The position numbers were made by a program, and so were the translations under genes. From a virus: 39,435 nt of DNA. Of the stretch, positions 1,275 through 39,435 are shown piece by piece. The number at the start of each line of letters is the position of its first letter. Position 1 is the stretch's first letter. The DNA lies in IMG/VR virus record IMGVR_UViG_3300044610_000341, positions 1-39,435 of that record. The stretch is one strand, 5' to 3'. Under the pieces are notes generated by a model that saw only the letters and a list, made by a program, of their open reading frames with translations, was not told the origin of the DNA and searched no databases.

Positions 1275-1296
1275 AAATTTAAGTTTTAGTGTTTAT

Positions 1297-1461
1297 TTAC
1301 ATAACTACATTCCAAAGGCTACACTGGTAAAGATCCTCTACAGACTTTACTGTACTTACTTTGTCAACTATTAAATCAAAGTCTTTGTCCTGAAATAGGA
1401 TTTTAAAAACCAAAAGATCATTTTTTCTACCGGATGGTAGTGTAACATTCATTGTCATCAT
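1297..1461 (-). CDS. Small hypothetical protein (54 aa)
   Basis: This short ORF opens with M-M-T-M-N-V-T-L-P-S-G-R and ends L-W-N-V-V-M. It fills an otherwise empty gap and carries the early leader (ATAACAC, 15 nt upstream of the ATG). A TATCTTTG promoter box lies about 50 bp further upstream. I treat it as a real small gene because leader and spacing match its neighbours. Its function is unknown. Confidence 0.55.
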   Translation of the reverse strand: MMTMNVTLPSGRKNDLLVFKILFQDKDFDLIVDKVSTVKSVEDLYQCSLWNVVM

Positions 1462-1511
1462 AAATTTAAGTTTTAAGTGTTATGCAAATGTATTGCAAAA
1501 AAGCATATTTG

Positions 1512-1519
1512 CAAAGATA
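1512..1519 (-). promoter_or_regulatory. Bacteroidota-type promoter -7 box (TATCTTTG)
   Basis: On the minus strand TATCTTTG matches the TAnnTTTG -7 consensus of Bacteroidota promoters. It lies in the gap between the gene ending at 1549 and the small gene starting at 1461. There is no clear TTG -33 box at the usual spacing. Confidence 0.4.
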
Positions 1520-1548
1520 GTAATAAAAAGTTTTAAACAGACTTGTGT

Positions 1549-1740
1549 TTAGTTGCTATTTACTTTGCTGTTATCTTTTAAGAGATGTAGAAAAATCTCG
1601 AATGTATTTTTCTCGAAATAACTCAGTAATTCATACTGATCAACCAACAATACCTTGCACAGCATAAAATTGTCGTTGAAGTTTAAAGCATTTATTCCGG
1701 AAGCATGTAAAATGGAAATAATCTCTTTTTTCGGATCCAT
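1549..1740 (-). CDS. Small hypothetical protein (63 aa)
   Basis: The start ATG at 1740 is preceded by two leader motifs (TAAACAC 15 nt upstream, and a TAAACCC before it). The protein is mostly helical, with D-P-K-K-E-I-I-S-I-L at the start and an aromatic, Leu-rich second half. The segment D-Q-Y-E-L-L is echoed by D-Q-Y-E-L-I in the 2342-2533 product, so the two may be distantly related. Function unknown. Confidence 0.65.
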   Translation of the reverse strand: MDPKKEIISILHASGINALNFNDNFMLCKVLLVDQYELLSYFEKNTFEIFLHLLKDNSKVNSN

Positions 1741-1781
1741 AGGTTTAAATTTTAAGTGTTTATAGGGTTTATTACGGTTTA

Positions 1782-2321
1782 TCAGTAAATAACAAATCCA
1801 TCTTCATTAAACTGATATTCATTCGCCTCGAAATAGTCCTGAATGTATTCTTGTGAATGCATCCAATCGTATTGTTTTACCAGGCACGCAAGGTAATACC
1901 CTTCTATGTAACCTTTGTATTCCATCTCTAATTCTTTTATGCTATCGTATAAACGATCTATTTCCAGCCATTCATTAGTTAGTTCTAACTCATTAGCAAA
2001 TGTATTGTACTTTTCAATAAACTCTTTTGTTTCTTTGTGTAGATCCAAATCTTCCTTTGCCGGTTTAAACTCACCAAGATCTATAAAGCTCAGCATCTGA
2101 TTCACTTTACAGGCTATGTTGGAATAGCTTGATAGATTTTTTACCTCAATATCTTTTCTGTAAAGATCAAAAGACTCAATTGAAATATCAATAGATTTTG
2201 CCTGATCATAAATATCAGAATACCACAATTGCTCAATATGGAAGTATTTATCCATTGCCTTTTCTTTGGCCTTTTCACTCAATTCTTTAAAAGAGTAAAC
2301 GTTTACTGTAATTTGTTTCAT
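1782..2321 (-). CDS. Conserved phage protein, 'antitoxin of toxin-antitoxin stability system'-type
   Basis: The 179-residue acidic protein opens with an F-K-E-L-S-E-K-A-K-E-K-A segment and closes with N-E-Y-Q-F-N-E-D-G. I recognise this arrangement from a widespread phage family that databases often label as an antitoxin-like protein, mainly by annotation transfer. No toxin partner is visible beside it. The centre is helical and rich in Glu, Tyr and Leu. The early leader (TAAACCC, 16 nt upstream) precedes its ATG. The molecular function is not established. Confidence 0.65.
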   Translation of the reverse strand: MKQITVNVYSFKELSEKAKEKAMDKYFHIEQLWYSDIYDQAKSIDISIESFDLYRKDIEVKNLSSYSNIACKVNQMLSFIDLGEFKPAKEDLDLHKETKEFIEKYNTFANELELTNEWLEIDRLYDSIKELEMEYKGYIEGYYLACLVKQYDWMHSQEYIQDYFEANEYQFNEDGFVIY

Positions 2322-2341
2322 TTTATTAATTTTTAAAGGGT

Positions 2342-2533
2342 TTATAGATTTAGGTTTATTGATAGACTAAACAATTCATTCCAGGTCATGTTGGATTCTT
2401 CAATCAATTCATATTGATCAGCACAGGCAATAATCTCTGACTCAAAACTTTCATAACCGGATTCTTTTATTAAGTCGATCCATTCGTTTATTGATTGTTT
2501 TTTTTGCATTAGGGTAAATTCCTTTATTGTCAT
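2342..2533 (-). CDS. Small hypothetical protein (63 aa)
   Basis: It starts M-T-I-K-E-F-T-L-M and contains D-Q-Y-E-L-I-E-E, similar to a segment of the 1549-1740 product. It is acidic and helical with no membrane segment. The leader TAAACCC is 15 nt before the ATG and overlaps the stop codon of the upstream small ORF (2553-2654). Function unknown. Confidence 0.65.
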   Translation of the reverse strand: MTIKEFTLMQKKQSINEWIDLIKESGYESFESEIIACADQYELIEESNMTWNELFSLSINLNL

Positions 2534-2552
2534 AACTTTAAAATTTAAGGGT

Positions 2553-2654
2553 TTATTTTTTAGGCTTTTTAGCAGTTGATCTTCTTTTTTTAGGCTTTAC
2601 AAAGTCTTTTGTAATTACATCGGGTAAAAAGATATTAAGCAATAATTTTAACAT
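2553..2654 (-). CDS. Very small basic protein (33 aa)
   Basis: The ORF begins M-L-K-L-L-L-N-I-F-L and ends in a strongly basic tail (K-P-K-K-R-R-S-T-A-K-K-P-K-K). Two tandem leader motifs (2662-2668 and 2672-2678) lie upstream; the distal one is at the standard 17-nt distance from the ATG. Upstream of these is a strong terminator hairpin. An amphipathic N-terminus with a polybasic tail suggests binding to nucleic acid or membrane, but this is only inference. Confidence 0.5.
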   Translation of the reverse strand: MLKLLLNIFLPDVITKDFVKPKKRRSTAKKPKK

Positions 2655-2696
2655 AGTAAAAGGGTTTATAAGGGTTTATATTTTTAAACAGAGGGT

Positions 2697-2728
2697 AAAA
2701 AAATCCGGCCTATTTTTCAAGGCCGGAT
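2697..2728 (-). terminator. Rho-independent terminator after the clamp-like gene
   Basis: On the minus strand an 8-bp G/C-rich stem (ATCCGGCC with GGCCGGAT, 10-nt loop) is followed by seven T residues. It lies 24 bp after the stop of the 2752-3813 gene. Confidence 0.85.
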
Positions 2729-2751
2729 CTAAACAATAAACAAACAATAAA

Positions 2752-3813
2752 CTAAACACAAACAAAATTTTCTTGCTTTACTGCCGGGGCGAAATAATCC
2801 GGTTGGATCAAGTCAGGGCGATTTGTGGCTATAGGCATAACAAGGCCGTTAACGCGTCGATCTATAGATGAAAAATTTAGGGCTTTATTAATTCCGTAAA
2901 AGTTTACATTGAAAAGCATATTTTCACCTGATAAAGATAATAGGCCTTTTAAGGTTGTCAATAGGTGCTCAATATCGAAAGTCAGAATAGATCCGTTAAA
3001 ATCTATACTAAAATGACGGATGTACATTTTATCGATATTTTTAAGAATATCAGCGTACATAGAAACTCGGTTGTAAAGATCAACTAATTTACCAGTGTAG
3101 GTAGATTCGGGTGTAATACCCTCATTCATGAAATTGCATACATTTTTCCATTGTTTTCTAAAACTTGGATTTGATTCTTTGCCGGTTGTAACTGAAAACG
3201 CAGTACATTCTACAGAGTTAAAAAAAGATGGTTCCAAGTATTGATTGAAAACTTCATTGACTTTATTTTGAGCTTCTGTTAATCCGATAAACTTTGCAGT
3301 ATCTTTTATAGAGATAGATCTAAACTGCTGTAGAAAATCGTAATTTTCAATAGATACATTTTCGGGTTTATAGGCTATCAACTTATAACAATCCGTTGAA
3401 ACAATAAATTGTTGATCCAAGATAATAGAATCCGTTTCACGTATACAATTCTTTTCACCTGCGAATGTTGCTATAGTATCGAAAGTAGATTTTATTTTTA
3501 CGGGTTTATGTTTGGGCTCAATACCATGAAAAGAGAATAAGTATGTACTGCAGTCGAATAAAATTTTATTTTTGAGCTTTACATTGTTTTCATACATAGA
3601 AGCTAAAAAAAGGCCGTAAAAATTAGCTTTATTCTTTTCTACCTGATCCGGATTTGTTGCACCTTCTGTAAAATCTAACTTTGTGCCGGTTGCGCAGTAA
3701 TAACTATTTTCAAGATCAGCAATTTTTTTATCAAAACTTTCATGAATTGCCGCAAGTTTTAATGGATCAATTGAGAATTGAGAAGTGAAAGAAAGGGTGT
3801 TATTTTGTTGCAT
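2752..3813 (-). CDS. Putative beta sliding clamp-like protein (353 aa)
   Basis: The length is close to bacterial DnaN (about 366 aa). Two segments align by eye with DnaN. Residues 112-150 contain S-T-D-C-Y-K-L (139-145), like the A-T-D-G-H-R-L motif of domain II. Residues 269-328 contain an F-S-I-D strand, the helix L-L-T-T-L-K-G-L-L (284-292) and a closing L-V-M-P-I (324-328), like V-V-M-P at the DnaN C-terminus. A roughly 25-residue extension follows. If correct it is a processivity factor. The window encodes no recognisable DNA polymerase, so it would have to work with the host enzyme. The start is supported by the leader TAAACCC, 17 nt upstream. This is a motif-level assignment; a structure prediction would settle it. 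Confidence 0.5.
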   Translation of the reverse strand: MQQNNTLSFTSQFSIDPLKLAAIHESFDKKIADLENSYYCATGTKLDFTEGATNPDQVEKNKANFYGLFLASMYENNVKLKNKILFDCSTYLFSFHGIEPKHKPVKIKSTFDTIATFAGEKNCIRETDSIILDQQFIVSTDCYKLIAYKPENVSIENYDFLQQFRSISIKDTAKFIGLTEAQNKVNEVFNQYLEPSFFNSVECTAFSVTTGKESNPSFRKQWKNVCNFMNEGITPESTYTGKLVDLYNRVSMYADILKNIDKMYIRHFSIDFNGSILTFDIEHLLTTLKGLLSLSGENMLFNVNFYGINKALNFSSIDRRVNGLVMPIATNRPDLIQPDYFAPAVKQENFVCV

Positions 3814-3897
3814 GTTGTGTAAGTTTAAAAGGGTTTATGATTGTTTATTGATCTTAAAATTGATTTTAAGGTAGTAAATTTTGAATGAAGAGTAAAA

Positions 3898-3924
3898 AAT
3901 AGGGCTAAGTATATCAGCCCTATT
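3898..3924 (-). terminator. Terminator hairpin after the 49-aa gene
   Basis: The 9-bp stem AATAGGGCT/AGCCCTATT with a 9-nt loop is followed on the minus strand by a T-rich run. It lies between the small gene ending at 3950 and the leader of the clamp-like gene. Confidence 0.75.
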
Positions 3925-3949
3925 TTAAATTCATTTAAGGCCGTTTAAA

Positions 3950-4099
3950 TTAGTTTTTTGAAAGGTGCCAAGCGCCCAAGATATAAGGCCTAACAAATTT
4001 AGAATCCAAGTAATTTTTACAGCTTGTTAGATCAGAGGCTAAAAAATAGCGGGTTAATAACTGATTTTCAGAGGTGAAATAAATTTTATATGTTTTCAT
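3950..4099 (-). CDS. Small hypothetical protein (49 aa)
   Basis: The ORF starts M-K-T-Y-K-I-Y-F-T-S and ends W-H-L-S-K-N. It is aromatic-rich with one Cys and has two leader motifs upstream (4115-4121 and 4125-4131). A terminator hairpin follows it. Leader and terminator together argue that it is a true single-gene unit. Function unknown. Confidence 0.55.
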   Translation of the reverse strand: MKTYKIYFTSENQLLTRYFLASDLTSCKNYLDSKFVRPYILGAWHLSKN

Positions 4100-4145
4100 C
4101 TTGTTAAAATTTAAGAGTTTATAAGGGTTTAAAATTTGCTTTATT

Positions 4146-4718
4146 TTATGCTGTAGTATATTGAGTAACTTTGAAGGGGTTAAAATCTTTTATTTTTAGA
4201 TTTTCGATCGACTCCAAATCAATTGAAAATTTCACAAAGTCATTTTCACCTGATGAAAAAATAGATTTTAAAACGCTGAGCGGGTGAACGTAAAAGGGTT
4301 TTAACTTTTCGGGATCAGCGCCACAGTAAATAACACAAGCTTGAAAATCGGCCAAAACGATATTGTAGAGGGTTTTCGCTATATCTTTTATTTGATCCTG
4401 TGTGAAGAGGTTATAATGCTCAGAAAGGAACAAACAAGCGGTTGAAACTGATTCGGCCGAATTTGGGTTTATTGCATAGAATGAAATATAGCCGGTTGAA
4501 GGATCTTCAAATAAAAGGCCGATCGTATTATAAGTTGATTTTTTCGGCTTGTTTTCACGTCCTGTTTTCGGGTTTATCGTTTGCTCAACATATCTAAAAC
4601 CGGATCCGGGTTTAAACTCTACAGAGTCTTTTTTAGTTGTACGCAGTTTAAAACCGTAAGGGTAGTTTTCAATCGTTTTAACGGTTGAAGTGTGAAAGAA
4701 AAATTTTGTTGTATTCAT
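4146..4718 (-). CDS. Hypothetical protein (190 aa), with a segment resembling the clamp-like protein
   Basis: Residues 142-167 (H-P-L-S-V-L-K-S-I-F-S-S-G-E-N then a beta strand) resemble residues 283-304 of the 2752-3813 protein (H-L-L-T-T-L-K-G-L-L-S-L-S-G-E-N). The two may share a clamp-type domain or a duplicated origin. The N-terminal half is basic and beta-rich, with a P-K-T-G-R-E-N-K-P loop. The leader TAAACCC is 17 nt before the ATG. No function can be assigned with confidence. Confidence 0.65.
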   Translation of the reverse strand: MNTTKFFFHTSTVKTIENYPYGFKLRTTKKDSVEFKPGSGFRYVEQTINPKTGRENKPKKSTYNTIGLLFEDPSTGYISFYAINPNSAESVSTACLFLSEHYNLFTQDQIKDIAKTLYNIVLADFQACVIYCGADPEKLKPFYVHPLSVLKSIFSSGENDFVKFSIDLESIENLKIKDFNPFKVTQYTTA

Positions 4719-4765
4719 TTTATTGAAGTTTAAAAGGGTTTATATTTTTATAAGGGTGAAAAGAT

Positions 4766-4969
4766 CTAAGAGTTGAAACAATAGTTTTTTAATTTCCAAC
4801 CGGATTTTGTTAGCGTTTCAACTTGGTAGTCACCGTCGAAGGCTATATTTTCAGAGTGAGTTAGCCACACGCGCTTTCTCTTTGTTTGGATCTTGAGAAA
4901 GTCACCGTTCCAAGCCTGTTCAATAGTTGGTAGGCTTTTTAATTCTGATTTGGTGTAATTCGTTTTCAT
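4766..4969 (-). CDS. Small hypothetical protein (67 aa)
   Basis: It starts M-K-T-N-Y-T-K-S-E-L-K-S-L-P-T, is basic (K-R-K-R near residue 30), and is beta-rich towards the end (Y-Q-V-E-T-L-T-K-S-G-W-K-L). Two leader copies stand upstream (4987-4993 and 4997-5003), the nearer at 17 nt. Unknown function. Confidence 0.6.
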   Translation of the reverse strand: MKTNYTKSELKSLPTIEQAWNGDFLKIQTKRKRVWLTHSENIAFDGDYQVETLTKSGWKLKNYCFNS

Positions 4970-5009
4970 TGGATTAAATTTTAAAAGGGTTTAAAAGGGT
5001 TTAAAAGGT

Positions 5010-5029
5010 GCGGGTATATTTCAACCCGC
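5010..5029 (-). terminator. Probable terminator hairpin after the small lipoprotein gene
   Basis: A 6-bp stem (GCGGGT with ACCCGC, 8-nt loop) lies just after the lipoprotein stop at 5040 and just before the leader of the 4766-4969 gene. The T-run on the minus-strand side is weak; on the plus side TTTT follows directly. Confidence 0.5.
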
Positions 5030-5039
5030 TTTTACTTTA

Positions 5040-5204
5040 TTAGTTGATTTTGTGCCAACCGCAGCCTCCGTTGTCATGTTGGCCGAAATTCTTACTATGT
5101 GAACTCTTCAAATGGTTTTGATAAGAATTTACACTCTTTGAAGTTGAGCAAGATTGCAACAGGATCAACAGAGCTGCGCAAATGATTAGAACTAACTTTG
5201 TCAT
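5040..5204 (-). CDS. Small predicted lipoprotein (54 aa)
   Basis: The ORF begins with Met-Thr-Lys, a hydrophobic stretch, and a lipobox ending L-Q-S-C at Cys19. A short Ser/Asn/His-rich mature part ends G-C-G-W-H-K-I-N. This is a lipid-anchored peptide of about 36 residues. It is the first gene of the leftward arm, next to the divergent control region, so it is probably expressed early. A superinfection-exclusion or envelope role is conceivable but not shown. Its leader contains an AACAACAAC run rather than the TAAACMC motif. Confidence 0.6.
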   Translation of the reverse strand: MTKLVLIICAALLILLQSCSTSKSVNSYQNHLKSSHSKNFGQHDNGGCGWHKIN

Positions 5205-5352
5205 AACTTTTGTTTTTTTATTGTTTGTTGTTGTTGTTTAAATACGGGGCGAAGATACAACAGACAAATAATTTGTCAAGTGTTTTTTTTAAAAAAGATA
5301 AAAATAATTTGTAACGTATTGAAAATGAATAAGAAAAAAATGTATTTTTTTT

Positions 5353-30171: not shown

Positions 30172-30534
30172 TTATGATTCTAAATAATTGTGAACTGATT
30201 GAATAAACTCATCAAGTGATCGGCAAACCTTTACGCAATATCCGGAGTCCTCAAGTATTTTGTGAGTTGATTTTTGGCTATCTGATAGCACTCCCTTAGA
30301 TGTTTTCATCTCAATAAATAGGGCATGATACTTATCAGATGGAATGCAAATAATCAAATCCGGCATTCCGAGCATAGCTCCTTCTTTCTTCAGGATATTC
30401 CATCTTTTAGCTCTTTGAACAGGTGTTCCACTGATGAATACACCGTTTGGAAAAGATGCTATCACTTGTTTTGGGAAGCTATACTTAAACCACTCCACAC
30501 ACTTTTGTTGGATATTGCTTTCCTCGTGCTTCAC
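30172..30534 (-). CDS. VRR-NUC domain nuclease
   Basis: The 120-residue protein shows the VRR-NUC pattern: P-N-G near residue 30, R41-A, G-M-P-D-L-I (57-61), F-I-E-M-K-T (E75, K77 as the E-x-K of the PD-(D/E)xK core) and S-D-S-Q-K (Q87). Stand-alone VRR-NUC proteins in phages are structure-selective nucleases. Here it may be paired with the annealing protein Bet or process replication intermediates. An ATGA overlap links it to the upstream gene. Confidence 0.85.
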   Translation of the reverse strand: MKHEESNIQQKCVEWFKYSFPKQVIASFPNGVFISGTPVQRAKRWNILKKEGAMLGMPDLIICIPSDKYHALFIEMKTSKGVLSDSQKSTHKILEDSGYCVKVCRSLDEFIQSVHNYLES

Positions 30535-30812
30535 TTCTTTTTGAAATACTTGTTCTGAATGGTAATTGTTTTCCCAATTTGACTACCTTTCTTCCAATTT
30601 ATTTCATTAATCTTTTGCTTGGCAGTCTTGGGCTCTCCATGACGAGCAAGAAAGGACTTCACTTGGGCTTTGGTTTTGCCACCTTGTGTTCCCCATTTTC
30701 CTCTTTGCGTATCTTGCCCTCCTTGTATGGTTTTTGTTTTACCATCCACTGAGCATTCGGCTTTCCAAGCCTTTCCTTTGGCTGTAGCCCTTGTGATTTT
30801 ACATTTTGCCAT
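30531..30812 (-). CDS. Basic hypothetical protein (93 aa)
   Basis: The protein is rich in Lys, Gln and Gly, with K-A-W-K-A-E-C-S-V-D-G-K, R-G-K-W-G-T-Q-G-G-K-T-K-A-Q-V and F-L-A-R-H-G. The charge suggests nucleic acid binding. Its ATG shares an A with the TAA of the XRE gene, and its stop overlaps the VRR-NUC start, so the three genes are likely translated together. Confidence 0.65.
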   Translation of the reverse strand: MAKCKITRATAKGKAWKAECSVDGKTKTIQGGQDTQRGKWGTQGGKTKAQVKSFLARHGEPKTAKQKINEINWKKGSQIGKTITIQNKYFKKK

Positions 30813-31009
30813 TATTCTATAAAGTATTTAAGATCTACGTTATAAAGGTCGGCTAATTTTCTCAATAATTCAATGTCAATTCTTTTTCTTTTGCCAGTTT
30901 CAAGTTTTGAGTAATCCGGCTGTCTCATTTTAAGATGGCTTGCTACAAGATGTTGTTTGTAGTGATTTTGCAATCTTAGATCTCTCATTTTATCAGTTAT
31001 CGCACTCAT
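30812..31009 (-). CDS. XRE/Cro-type transcription regulator
   Basis: The 65-residue protein is a single HTH_3 domain: M-R-D-L-R-L-Q-N-H-Y-K-Q then H-L-K-M-R-Q-P-D-Y-S-K-L-E-T-G-K-R and L-L-R-K-L-A-D-L-Y. It lacks a cleavage or dimerisation domain, as in Cro-like proteins. It could act at the divergent region 5205-5497 or at its own operon. No integrase accompanies it, so it need not mark lysogeny. Confidence 0.85.
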   Translation of the reverse strand: MSAITDKMRDLRLQNHYKQHLVASHLKMRQPDYSKLETGKRKRIDIELLRKLADLYNVDLKYFIE

Positions 31010-31490: not shown

Positions 31491-31572
31491 GGTTATTTGG
31501 TTTTTTGTCCTTTGATGCTAAAATCATCATTGTTTTTGTCATCACTAATAATATTATTGATAATATGATCAT
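31480..31572 (-). CDS. Possible 30-aa hydrophobic peptide
   Basis: The ORF starts with M-I-I-L-S-I-I-L-L-V and ends with a basic/Asn tail. It overlaps the previous stop by ATGA and the MazG start by 11 bp, so it fills the gap exactly as a coupled gene would. A membrane-active small peptide is possible. Its short length keeps confidence low. Confidence 0.3.
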   Translation of the reverse strand: MIILSIILLVMTKTMMILASKDKKPNNHDK

Positions 31573-31859
31573 TTATTCAATTGATTTACATATTCCCAAA
31601 GTGATTTGATGTCTTGGCAGATAAGTTTATCTTTATCTGTTGCTTCATACTTGTTGCGGCCAAAGTCATTCTCATAACAGAACCAAGTAATCCAATCACA
31701 ACCTTCTTTTCCAAAGTAGTGGCTCATCAGCAGTTCTATCACTTTGTTATATCCATCTGAGTGACTGTAAACGTCTACATTTAGCTTGTAGAGACTGTTT
31801 TCAGTCTTTGCTTGATAGTCAAGCGTTTGAATCATGTCTTTAAAATCTTTGTACTTCAT
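31569..31859 (-). CDS. Conserved hypothetical phage protein (96 aa)
   Basis: The acidic protein contains C-D-W-I-T-W-F-C-Y-E-N-D-F-G and ends with D-I-K-S-L-W-E-Y-V. I recognise this as a frequent unannotated protein in Bacteroidota phages. It is linked to the upstream paralogue by the SD/stop-start module (TAC AAA GGA GGT GAG CAA TGA). Function unknown. Confidence 0.7.
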   Translation of the reverse strand: MKYKDFKDMIQTLDYQAKTENSLYKLNVDVYSHSDGYNKVIELLMSHYFGKEGCDWITWFCYENDFGRNKYEATDKDKLICQDIKSLWEYVNQLNK

Positions 31860-32089
31860 TGCTCACCTCCTTTGTATGTTCTGTTATAGTAGCTTATTTC
31901 CGCTCCATCATAATTATCACCATCGTGGTCATACCCTTCACAGAATGCTTCAATAATCTGCTCCTTCTCTATTGCTTTGGCATTGCTGATTATTAGTTGT
32001 ATGTACAATAGCTTTTCATAAGGCACATAGTGTCCAATTTCAGCCTCAAGCCATTCAGCCATCTTTTCTACTGCTGTTCTCTTTTTCAT
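31856..32089 (-). CDS. Paralogue B of the small helical family (77 aa)
   Basis: The start (R-T-A-V-E-K-M-A-E-W-L), middle (K-E-Q-I-I-E-A-F-C-E-G) and end (S-Y-Y-N-R-T-Y-K-G-G-E-Q) fit the family. Its C-terminal Gly-Gly codons (GGA GGT) form the Shine-Dalgarno of the next gene. A perfect SD also stands before its own ATG inside the upstream gene. Confidence 0.75.
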   Translation of the reverse strand: MKKRTAVEKMAEWLEAEIGHYVPYEKLLYIQLIISNAKAIEKEQIIEAFCEGYDHDGDNYDGAEISYYNRTYKGGEQ

Positions 32090-32322
32090 TTGCCACCTCC
32101 CTTTTTCATATCCCTTCTAAGTTGCTTGGTCAGTGTCTCATGTCGTCTTGCTCTCATGATCGCCCTTGCATTCTTGATCGGCTTCTCCGTTTCTTTGTCA
32201 ATAACCATGAAGTCCATGACGTGAACGAGTCCGCAGTCGCAACAAGCCATCTTGTATCCCTTTTCGATGGGCATCTGCCATTCGTTTTTAGGAACTTGGT
32301 AAAAGTCTACTTTCTTTTTCAT
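32086..32322 (-). CDS. Cys-containing conserved phage protein (78 aa)
   Basis: It has K-M-A-C-C-D-C-G-L-V-H-V-M-D-F and a basic, Arg-rich second half (R-A-R-R-H-E-T-L). Similar CCDCGLxH proteins are frequent in phage genomes, without known role; the Cys/His set suggests a metal site. It ends G-G-G-K-stop and so carries the SD of the next gene, although it is not itself a member of the paralogous family. Confidence 0.7.
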   Translation of the reverse strand: MKKKVDFYQVPKNEWQMPIEKGYKMACCDCGLVHVMDFMVIDKETEKPIKNARAIMRARRHETLTKQLRRDMKKGGGK

Positions 32323-32558
32323 TTGCCACCTCCGTATGTTTCTCGATAGTGATCTTCAGAAACTTTGATTATTTTGTTTTTCATAGCATTTAAACCTAAA
32401 GTATCTGTGTGTTCTAACTTAGCTTTCATATAAGCCTCAATAATCTGCTCCTTCTCCATTTTCAAAGCATGATAATACAAGTGTTGCTTTTCTAATCTAT
32501 GCTCTAATGGTAATCGCTGAATTTCAGCAATTAGCCACTCTACTGCTGTTTGCTTCAT
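32319..32558 (-). CDS. Paralogue C of the small helical family (79 aa)
   Basis: It starts M-K-Q-T-A-V-E-W-L-I, has M-E-K-E-Q-I-I-E-A-Y-M and ends H-Y-R-E-T-Y-G-G-G-K. The usual G after the A-Y helix is replaced in this copy by K-A-K. It shares the SD/stop module on both sides (Y-G-G-G-K-stop into the next ATG). Confidence 0.8.
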   Translation of the reverse strand: MKQTAVEWLIAEIQRLPLEHRLEKQHLYYHALKMEKEQIIEAYMKAKLEHTDTLGLNAMKNKIIKVSEDHYRETYGGGK

Positions 32559-32816: not shown

Positions 32817-33671
32817 TTAGTCTGTACAAAATCCAGCCTGGCATCCGCTTCCTGTTCCAAAGTTAAATTCGCCTTGCAATCCAATTTTCTTAATATCATC
32901 ATAATTCATAACGCTTTTATAGTTGTATTTTGATTTTCTTTCCTCTCCAGAAAACCACTCCATTTTATTTGGATGATCATCCCAATTCTTTCTTAATTGC
33001 TGAACATCTTTCCAAAAACAACCAACACAATTACTATCTTCTTGAAAATCTATATTCTTTGTTTTCCAAAATTGTTGAACATGATAATGAGTGATTTTAT
33101 CATAGATTAAAGGATAATTTACAATACCCCAAAAAACATTTTGCCATTTATTCCTTGATCCTCTTTTGCCTACAATTATTTTAGAATGCAATTCCCTATC
33201 TTCTTTGGCTCTATGTTCTTCGTCATATCTAAATCCAATATTTGAAAAAACAGGAGTCATTTCATATTGAGGCATTATATGGTGATAGACAAAAGAGGCT
33301 ATTGGAATAATTTTCATTTCAGATGTACAATATCTCATAGCCATATTTGGAACAAGGTTTCCTTTTTTTTTATTTATGGTATCAAAACTTTCTCCCCTTA
33401 CCCAAATAATTTCTTTTCCCAACATTTGCTCTAAATCAAGCATTACTTTGAGGATTTTATCATCCTCAGCAGTTGCAATAAAATCACCATATTTTTCTGT
33501 AAAACCAAACTTAGATAGTTTGTCATTTGCCATTTGTACAATTTTTTTGTCTTTTGGCGCACATGAATGATTATTAATTGTGACAAGGGAAAAAATATTA
33601 AAATCAGCAGGATAATGTACCGCTAAATAAGAGCTCGTTTTTCCTCCACTTAAACTATTAATTGATTTCAT
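32817..33671 (-). CDS. PAPS reductase / PP-loop family protein (284 aa)
   Basis: The ATP-binding PP-loop S-G-G-K-T-S (8-13) opens the protein. R-Y-C-T-S-E-M-K-I (Cys115), N-C-V-G-C-F-W-K (Cys215, Cys218) and a terminal G-C-Q-A-G-F-C follow. This is the N-type ATP pyrophosphatase layout of PAPS reductase/DndC-like phage proteins; the Cys set could hold an Fe-S cluster. Reactions in the family include sulfur transfer and nucleotide or DNA modification. Which applies here cannot be told. It interrupts the paralogue cluster. It starts in overlap with the stop of the 54-aa gene upstream. Confidence 0.75.
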   Translation of the reverse strand: MKSINSLSGGKTSSYLAVHYPADFNIFSLVTINNHSCAPKDKKIVQMANDKLSKFGFTEKYGDFIATAEDDKILKVMLDLEQMLGKEIIWVRGESFDTINKKKGNLVPNMAMRYCTSEMKIIPIASFVYHHIMPQYEMTPVFSNIGFRYDEEHRAKEDRELHSKIIVGKRGSRNKWQNVFWGIVNYPLIYDKITHYHVQQFWKTKNIDFQEDSNCVGCFWKDVQQLRKNWDDHPNKMEWFSGEERKSKYNYKSVMNYDDIKKIGLQGEFNFGTGSGCQAGFCTD

Positions 33672-34730: not shown

Positions 34731-34982
34731 TCATTGAGTTTTATGTATCAGCGAATCAAATTTACGCAAATCTTCGATTGTGCTGCCATCTTTTTTAATC
34801 TGTTTTTTCAATAAGAATATCCTGACTTTGTTTATTATGATTATTGCAGCTCCCAGGGTTCCGGTAAGATCCAAAAAAGCTGTTATCAAATAAGCAATCA
34901 AGGTAAATAAGGAGATAATGATCATGGCGACAATTGCAATAGGCAAAGTCCAAGTCATTGCTATTTTTTCTTTTATTTTCAT
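34731..34982 (-). CDS. Small membrane protein (83 aa)
   Basis: I use the ATG at 34982 (M-K-I-K-E-K-I-A-M-T). A longer frame to 35048 is an artefact of reading through the tRNA-like element. About two hydrophobic segments occupy residues 10-57, followed by a basic, soluble tail. It may be an early membrane effector. Unknown function. Confidence 0.6.
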   Translation of the reverse strand: MKIKEKIAMTWTLPIAIVAMIIISLFTLIAYLITAFLDLTGTLGAAIIIINKVRIFLLKKQIKKDGSTIEDLRKFDSLIHKTQ

Positions 34983-34997
34983 GTTGTTTGATTTAGA

Positions 34998-35063
34998 AAG
35001 GTGTACGGGATTTGAACCCGTATCAGCTACATCGAGCCGTTTTTCCATTTAAACTAACACCCC
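34998..35063 (-). tRNA. tRNA-like element with shortened anticodon arm
   Basis: The minus strand shows an acceptor stem (GGGGTGT with ACACCTT, two G-T pairs), D arm (GTTT/AAAC with a loop holding GG), and a perfect T arm (ACGGG, TTCAAAT loop, CCCGT). Only 17 nt lie between the D and T arms, about 6 fewer than usual. The best anticodon stem is 3-4 bp with a 6-nt loop CGATGT. The anticodon cannot be assigned. No CCA is encoded. It may be a decayed tRNA, a decoy, or a very unusual tRNA. Confidence 0.6.
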
Positions 35064-39256: not shown

Positions 39257-39435
39257 TTATTTTGCAAGTGTTATTTCAATGGTGGTTTTACTTGTTTTCA
39301 CCGGAGGGTATAGATCAGTTAATTCACCTGTCTCTTCATCCAATACAGTTATCTTTTGCTTCAGGCTTTTTAGTTGATCTTCCAAATCTTTTCTAATTGC
39401 CGCTTGCTCATCCTCTTTTGACTTTAAGGCCTTCC
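39257..39435 (-). CDS. Hypothetical protein, C-terminal end of the join-spanning gene (plus duplicated part)
   Basis: This is the end of the protein that begins at position 432. Bases 39302-39435 duplicate 1-134, and only 39257-39301 (14 codons plus TAA) are new. The frame is continuous across the join (Tyr-Pro-Pro, then Val-Lys-Thr-Ser-Lys), which supports a true circle. The single difference between the copies (T at 127, G at 39428) changes an Ala codon from GCA to GCC and is silent. The real bet start at 39240 lies 16 bp beyond the stop. Confidence 0.75.
   Translation of the reverse strand, partial: KALKSKEDEQAAIRKDLEDQLKSLKQKITVLDEETGELTDLYPPVKTSKTTIEITLAK
39302..39435. repeat. Right copy of the 134-bp terminal direct repeat
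   Basis: This copy has the same orientation as 1-134. The first 126 bases are identical, then there is one T/G difference, then seven more identical bases. The difference is synonymous in the spanning gene. Confidence 0.9.

Follow-up and report, generated by a model that had tools for sequence, protein, structure and literature searches.

A repeated TAAACMC leader in the leftward gene block of a freshwater Bacteroidetes-type phage, best explained as a translation-initiation element

In Bacteroidota, ribosomes hide their anti-Shine-Dalgarno sequence (PMC9976891; PMC10783764). In Flavobacterium johnsoniae, adenines at positions -12, -13, -6, and -3 raise translation (PMC6847099), adenine is enriched from -14 to -11, and ribosomal protein bS1 has been proposed as the sensor (PMC6847099; PMC3155529). 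What directs these ribosomes to their start sites, if not Shine-Dalgarno pairing, is an open question, and strong start signals that can be moved between genes are naturally to be sought in phages. Here we describe a seven-base word, TAAACMC (M is A or C), repeated before the genes of one block of a freshwater phage of Bacteroidetes type (IMG/VR record IMGVR_UViG_3300044610_000341). The contig comprises 39,435 bases, and this whole stretch is called the window below. The word marks a real, group-specific leader, which is best explained as a translation-initiation element.

The block runs leftward from 5204 to about 437 and consists of small genes whose function was not assigned by homology; a Pfam and PHROGs search of its proteins gave no match naming a function. 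From its position and content, the block is putatively expressed early. TAAACMC occurs 29 times in the window, compared with 10.5 expected and a maximum of 20 in 100 shuffles, and 18 of the 29 copies lie on the minus strand between 1289 and 5003. According to the table of open reading frames (ORFs), 12 of these 18 are in leaders directly before minus-strand genes, one (1545-1551) begins at a stop codon about 85 nucleotides (nt) before the next ATG, and five (3364, 3502, 4465, 4570, and 4608) are within coding sequence, where they look incidental. An exact copy lies within 40 nt of the start of 9 of 11 block genes, versus 0/23 and 0/20 elsewhere in the phage (Fisher P of ~1e-8 for the block versus the rest). 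Three copies (1545, 2338, and 2549) open with the TAA stop codon of the upstream gene. The ten leader genes start at 4969, 4718, 4099, 3813, 2654, 2533, 2321, 1740, 1461, and 1274, and their leaders, all on the minus strand, are as follows.

4970..5003, minus strand: leader of gene 4766-4969, with TAAACCC at 4997-5003 and 4987-4993, 10 nt apart.
4719..4742, minus strand: leader of gene 4146-4718, with TAAACCC 17 nt from the ATG and TAAACTT 10 nt further on.
4100..4131, minus strand: leader of gene 3950-4099, with TAAACCC 25 nt and the variant TAAACTC (4115-4121) 15 nt from the ATG.
3814..3837, minus strand: leader of gene 2752-3813, identical in the relative L081, where a gene for 106 amino acids (aa) is inserted directly upstream.
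2655..2678, minus strand: leader of a 33-aa ORF (2553-2654), with TAAACCC twice at a spacing of 10 nt, the copies being 17 and 7 nt from the ATG.
2534..2555, minus strand: leader of gene 2342-2533, in which the upstream 33-aa ORF stops at the TAA of TAAACCC.
2322..2344, minus strand: leader of gene 1782-2321, in which gene 2342-2533 stops at the TAA of TAAACCC.
1741..1771, minus strand: leader of gene 1549-1740, with TAAACCC and TAAACAC 9 nt apart.
1462..1482, minus strand: leader of gene 1297-1461, with the variant TAACAC directly 3' of a host-type promoter.
1275..1295, minus strand: leader of gene 759-1274, with TAAACAC 14 nt from the ATG.

An earlier note on this DNA had reported about fourteen copies before ten genes, a figure that fits the 12 exact leader copies plus near-variants (TAACAC at 1477-1482 and TAAACTC at 4115-4121); its census needs correcting by the five further copies inside coding sequence. 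The distance of 14 to 17 nt that it gave from motif end to ATG is borne out by exact copies at eight genes and, once the two variants are counted, at all ten. The tandem arrangement that it described is also present: 7 of 10 close pairs of TAAAC in the window are exactly 10 nt apart. As the note had also said, the word differs from the host TAnnTTTG promoter.

The composition of the leaders carries the case for translation initiation. Over 45 motif genes, G made up 0 to 3% of the last 30 nt, versus 17% at -60 to -40, and there were 0.16 ATG per 40 nt. Adenine stood at -13 in 96% of these genes, at -12 in 91%, and at -6 in 80%, because the TTAAAA that follows TAAACMC supplies it at these positions; the values were 70% at -13 and 57% at -12 in the 23 early genes that lack the motif and have at least a 10-nt gap. 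Within the window, all 11 early genes had adenine at both -13 and -12, versus 54% and 64% of 28 other ORFs. Ten window stretches were folded, and each of the 6 that had neither a hairpin nor a promoter region upstream gave 0 kcal/mol. Strings resembling a Shine-Dalgarno sequence precede only 4 of the 63 window ORFs, all outside the block. A leader free of G up to the ATG suits an unstructured message and is not required by a DNA site.

From these features, we estimate at somewhat under 60% the probability that the leader is a translation-initiation region acting in the mRNA. TAAACMC and the TTAAAA after it would then keep the message ahead of the AUG unstructured and almost without G, and would set adenines at -13, -12, and -6, positions at which the Shine-Dalgarno-independent ribosomes of Bacteroidota favor them. 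One word, sometimes in tandem, would have come to precede almost every gene of the leftward block, and each gene would get its own strong start site, whether it stands behind a promoter, a hairpin, or a stop codon. We infer that the motif is transcribed and raises translation and that it is sensed by bS1 or the 30S platform.

Five results point to action in RNA rather than DNA: the sense-only orientation, the G-free unstructured leader, the distance to the ATG, the genes with short gaps, and the lack of anything conserved upstream. All 44 copies scored for orientation were sense and none was antisense, and the motif-ATG distance peaked sharply at 15 to 19 nt (23 of 55 copies within 100 nt). 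Host boxes (TAHHTTYG) lay farther from the ATG, 11 of 14 at 35 to 54 nt and thus upstream of the motif; where such boxes are present, the motif falls in or at the start of the predicted 5' untranslated region (5'UTR). Leaders of this size are ordinary, since the median 5'UTR of Flavobacterium psychrophilum is 24 nt (PMC9723704). Among genes 10 to 30 nt behind their neighbor, 13 of 23 had the motif and 0 of 23 had a promoter box; genes closer than this or overlapping had the motif in 0 of 18 cases, and those with a gap of at least 60 nt had it in 14 of 32. Absence from the close or overlapping genes, which are expected to be coupled, together with presence at 10 to 30 nt, fits independent initiation. 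Conservation ended at the 5' edge of the motif, with upstream information content near zero: no second conserved element was found from -45 to -1 in 39 non-redundant leaders (at most ~0.3 bits), an alignment built with a relaxed motif after 8 of 47 rows were dropped as near-identical, with its CATAAC and AATAAC rows one base out of register.

The earlier note had proposed a search for the motif in related phages. Metagenomic viral contigs contain many relatives of the terminase (80 loci kept). The relatives in cultured phages are remote (at most 27% identity among the 30 matches listed), and those in cellular genomes, at no more than 35% identity, are mostly from Bacteroidota. Together with the TAnnTTTG-type boxes recovered de novo close to gene starts in the phage group, the latter make a Bacteroidota host likely. 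On the minus strand upstream of the terminase, TAAACMC was strongly enriched in the window (19 versus 1.9 expected), L006 (21 versus 2.3), L023 (15 versus 2.9), and L001 (11 versus 1.6) and weakly enriched in L020 (5 versus 1.2) and L012 (4 versus 0.6). Of 32 relatives with DNA in this position, 5 beat all shuffles (L001, L006, L020, L023, and, barely, L012), and the other 27 were within the shuffle range. The motif is also carried by G006 and G012. An exact copy stood within 37 nt of the ATG in 36 of 86 pooled early-block ORFs from six contigs (dinucleotide shuffles gave a mean of 3.9 and a maximum of 10), and in five genomes the motif preceded 0 of 110 other ORFs and 30 of the 58 early-block ORFs whose intergenic DNA measures 10 nt or more; the totals 86 and 110 are approximate, since genes outside the window block are uncurated script-called ATG ORFs, some surely spurious. 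The search thus extended the motif beyond the window, and because the genes behind the leaders are mostly non-homologous between phages, what these phages share is the word and not the genes.

Conservation was also followed at closer and wider range. Between the window and L081, the leaders are 97% identical and the DNA immediately upstream is 88% identical. The additional 106-aa gene of L081 lies directly before the leader of gene 3813 and leaves the 27 nt from motif through ATG unchanged; before gene 4969, L081 has one more 10-nt repeat unit. L082 is ~99% identical to the window throughout, with no contrast between leader and flank. In the terminase tree, motif phages were clustered but did not form one clade (three changes); they were interleaved with near relatives lacking the word, so the early region is modular. 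Some rows of the tree, L003 and L024 among them, cover the early region barely or not at all. An exact scan of 2.9 million viral contigs for an extended form matched three, two of them already in the phage group; in the third (L112), TAAACACTTAAAA was not found. Among 296 Bacteroidota genomes, TAAACACTTAAAA occurred in 64, with at most 5 copies per genome, and a reversed control reached 7 in one. Host-wide use of the word was therefore not seen in this sample, where the reversed control reaches more copies.

A different word with the same adenine positions is used in a distant relative, G019, whose terminase is ~60% identical. There, AACGCAA precedes 8 of 46 starts, in sense orientation only, with adenine at -13 and -12 in 8/8 leaders and at -6 and -3 in 88%. 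Three of the eight leaders have a TAHHTTTG box 22 to 24 nt from the ATG, which puts the word within the predicted 5'UTR or at its beginning. In de novo searches, leader words beat the null maxima in G005, G012, G013, and G019, and CAACAAC in G007 did so narrowly; the best words in G006, G016, G021, and G022 were within the null, and the host promoter box ranked first in G024 and Flavobacterium phage 11b. For the window alone, TAAACCC scored 5.4 and did not reach the null maximum of 5.9, since the score pooled all 31 leaders of the genome. Across 20 host-type chromosome stretches of 20 kb each, no leader word recurred in more than three leaders; 19 of the 20 did not exceed the null maximum, and L135 narrowly did, with a word in two of eight leaders.

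Several observations weigh against translation initiation as the whole explanation. The word is confined to one block, which suggests that a class-specific role may be missing from this account, as a general ribosome preference would not forbid late genes. Its best-conserved columns are the C residues at the fifth and seventh bases, which correspond to no known initiation feature of Bacteroidota. Adenine at -3 was found in only 53% of the 45 motif genes and was not clearly raised. Finally, the early genes of G013 have adenine at -13 in 94% of cases and the exact word in only 8 of 17, so the adenine pattern does not need the word.

Block restriction and the conserved C residues suggest that something beyond the adenine pattern is recognized, and we therefore keep as the main rival a class-specific mRNA operator, in which a phage or host RNA-binding protein would read UAAACMC by start codons and switch translation, much as T4 RegA acts on ~30 messages. 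We regard such an operator as unlikely, though a serious contender. The restriction itself (30/58 versus 0/110), the tandem copies at 10-nt spacing in the window, and C positions in excess of what the adenine pattern needs all favor it, and RegA sites are likewise unstructured and rich in A+U, overlapping the AUG or located immediately 5' of it (PMC3014915). Against it, copy spacing is not fixed in relatives and no RNA-binding protein family was found; the RegA family PF01818 had no match in 4/4 genomes, a search that carries no weight because the positive control was silent too. Two small genes encode the candidates for a reader.

30812..31009, minus strand: 65-aa helix-turn-helix (HTH) protein (PF01381), candidate regulator only.
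30531..30812, minus strand: 93-aa protein, family not assigned, candidate reader only.

Homologs of the 65-aa protein were found in G006, G012, and G013 and not in G005 (a fragment), G007, G016, G019, G021, G022, or G024. The 93-aa protein is 90 to 91% identical in the same three contigs and has no homolog in the other seven compared. Both are thus matched, among ten contigs, only in three other large motif-bearing ones, a co-occurrence that rests on four genomes, with several of the comparison contigs incomplete. We take the two proteins as a lead, and a phage-specific reader of the word has a modest chance. A wider and still tentative idea, which we would sooner bet against, is that Bacteroidota phages carry private, lineage-specific leader words (TAAACMC here, AACGCAA in G019), each read by a co-evolving phage factor through which one class of message is translated preferentially or at a set time, on ribosomes indifferent to Shine-Dalgarno sequences. 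Two further searches concerned known factors and RNAs: phage bS21 was found in none of 8/8 contigs, with the control matched in 6 of 14 genomes, and the only known structured RNA (Rfam) was a tRNA-like match elsewhere in the window.

Alternatively, the motif before each gene might be a promoter specific to the phage or a DNA operator bound by a phage transcription factor, which we consider doubtful. The features that bear on this question are the following.

2697-2728, minus strand: strong terminator-like hairpin with a T run, ~43 nt before the ATG at 2654.
3896-3926, minus strand: strong terminator-like hairpin with a T run, ~83 nt before the ATG at 3813.
5010-5029, no strand assigned: hairpin GCGGGT-TGAAATAT-ACCCGC, with a T run on the plus strand only.
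1485..1492, minus strand: host-type -7 box TACATTTG with TTG 19 nt upstream, before gene 1461.
5250..5257, minus strand: near-consensus host -7 box TATCTTCG, before gene 5040-5204, whose leader is without TAAACMC.

Between either strong hairpin and the next gene, no host-type box (TAHHTTTG) was found, and this is the best argument left for the promoter idea of the earlier note; the genes concerned may depend on partial read-through, antitermination, or an unrecognized promoter. The 10-nt spacing of tandem copies in the window would also fit one face of the DNA, and an HTH protein is encoded. Set against this are the sense-only orientation, the leaders free of G to the ATG, the presence of the motif at neighbor gaps of 10 to 30 nt, and the recovery, de novo and in the same genomes, of host boxes farther from the ATG. 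The motif does not match the TAnnTTTG -7 box of sigma-ABfr promoters, real examples of which were found elsewhere, and it lacks the second element at a fixed upstream distance that would mark a bipartite promoter for any sigma. No sigma region 2 or 4 (PF04545/PF04542) was matched in 4/4 genomes, in which the positive controls matched; a search for phage RNA polymerase (PF00940) gave no match but carries no weight, its control being silent as well. At gene 1461, the predicted transcription start falls within the variant motif. A promoter was accordingly rejected as first choice, because the motif has no partner box and lies between the real host boxes and the ATG.

The three hairpins had been read in the earlier note as terminators. 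Two of them (2697-2728 and 3896-3926) are strong and followed by a T run on the minus strand, and the third is a real stem but a poor minus-strand terminator, because its T run is on the plus strand and the minus strand after the stem reads ACCTTTTAAACC. The note's further idea, that the hairpins cause each leader-gene unit to be transcribed alone, is not supported as a rule, because motif frequency did not rise where a hairpin would have room (13/23 at 10 to 30 nt versus 14/32 at 60 nt or more). Of the three functions it had offered, translation enhancer is the best supported, an operator read on the mRNA is less probable, and a phage-specific promoter is poorly supported in view of the missing partner box, the position downstream of host boxes, and the short gaps. 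Hairpins like the one at 5010-5029 also precede leaders in L020, L023, and L083. In G019 (L122, 4374-6797), a near-identical hairpin, GGCCCGGTTTCGGCCGGGCC, followed by T-rich DNA, stands before three AACGCAA leaders, in the same order of hairpin, leader, and gene as in the window.

Very unlikely, in our judgment, is that the leaders are a by-product, cassettes copied with the turnover of small early genes, the word itself being under no selection. Most early genes have no homologs in the relatives, and both the gene insertion and the gain of a 10-nt unit adjoin leaders, as such copying would predict. However, the leaders have changed less than the DNA that flanks them, their distance to the ATG is maintained, and TAAACMC leaders also precede the probable orthologs of gene 2752-3813 in G005 and G006 (25 to 26% protein identity; their size and place led us to equate them with the 328-aa genes). 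Base pairing between TAAACCC and 16S rRNA as a direct substitute for Shine-Dalgarno pairing was rejected as scarcely credible, since, although its complement GGGTTTAAAGGG occurs once in each of two Bacteroidota 16S genes, no match lies near the 16S 3' end and the pairing is not kept in relatives, most of which use TAAACAC, whose complement GTGTTTA is absent from both genes.

Other features of the contig are noted here. Its ends repeat each other (1-134 versus 39302-39435, agreeing at 133 of 134 positions), so the phage genome is probably complete and either circularly permuted or terminally redundant. The capsid protein had no match among 50,697 phages. On the minus strand at 31569-32558, four consecutive small genes stand behind strong Shine-Dalgarno-like strings (GGAGGTG, ~6 nt from the ATG); these 4 of 63 ORFs compare with 0.5 in shuffles, in a phage whose likely hosts do not use such strings, and they may only reflect protein sequence, because the string overlaps the 3' end of the upstream gene. 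Also on the minus strand, 30 to 35 kb holds a tandem run of small proteins that look paralogous by eye (M-K/R-T-A-M-Q.., EK..I.EAF..G, and YYN near the C terminus), and 32817-33671 is a phosphoadenosine phosphosulfate reductase-like gene (PHROG 424, E value of 2e-19). Rfam finds a tRNA at 34997-35063 (minus strand, 43.9 bits) that ARAGORN did not report; ORF 34731-35048 overlaps it, and the start of this ORF is probably wrong.

A short word reused before many unrelated genes is a ready test object for what matters at start sites besides adenines, and it could supply strong leaders for Bacteroidota genetics. If its class specificity has a reason, the word could also reveal translational control of the early-late switch.

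Among the open-licence literature matches listed, we found no account of a TAAACMC motif or of a repeated leader word in Bacteroidota phages. With sigma-ABfr promoters (TTTG/TAnnTTTG; PMC6847099; PMC9723704), the motif shares a place upstream of block genes; it differs from them in sequence, in having no partner box, and in lying between promoter and ATG. Like the operators of T4 RegA, it is a site of low structure, rich in A+U, that many early messages have in common near the start codon, a likeness in which the phage block is only putatively early; RegA sites are described as having no clear sequence conservation (PMC3014915), whereas the phage word is well conserved and its reader is only a candidate. 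It comes closest to the A-rich, "Kozak-like" initiation regions of Bacteroidota that act independently of Shine-Dalgarno pairing (PMC6847099; PMC3155529), having in common with them adenine enrichment at about -14 to -11 and at -6, low structure, few extra AUGs, and no Shine-Dalgarno sequence, with a role for bS1 proposed. Unlike those regions, the phage leader is an exact seven-base word, often in tandem, with fixed C residues and limited to one block.

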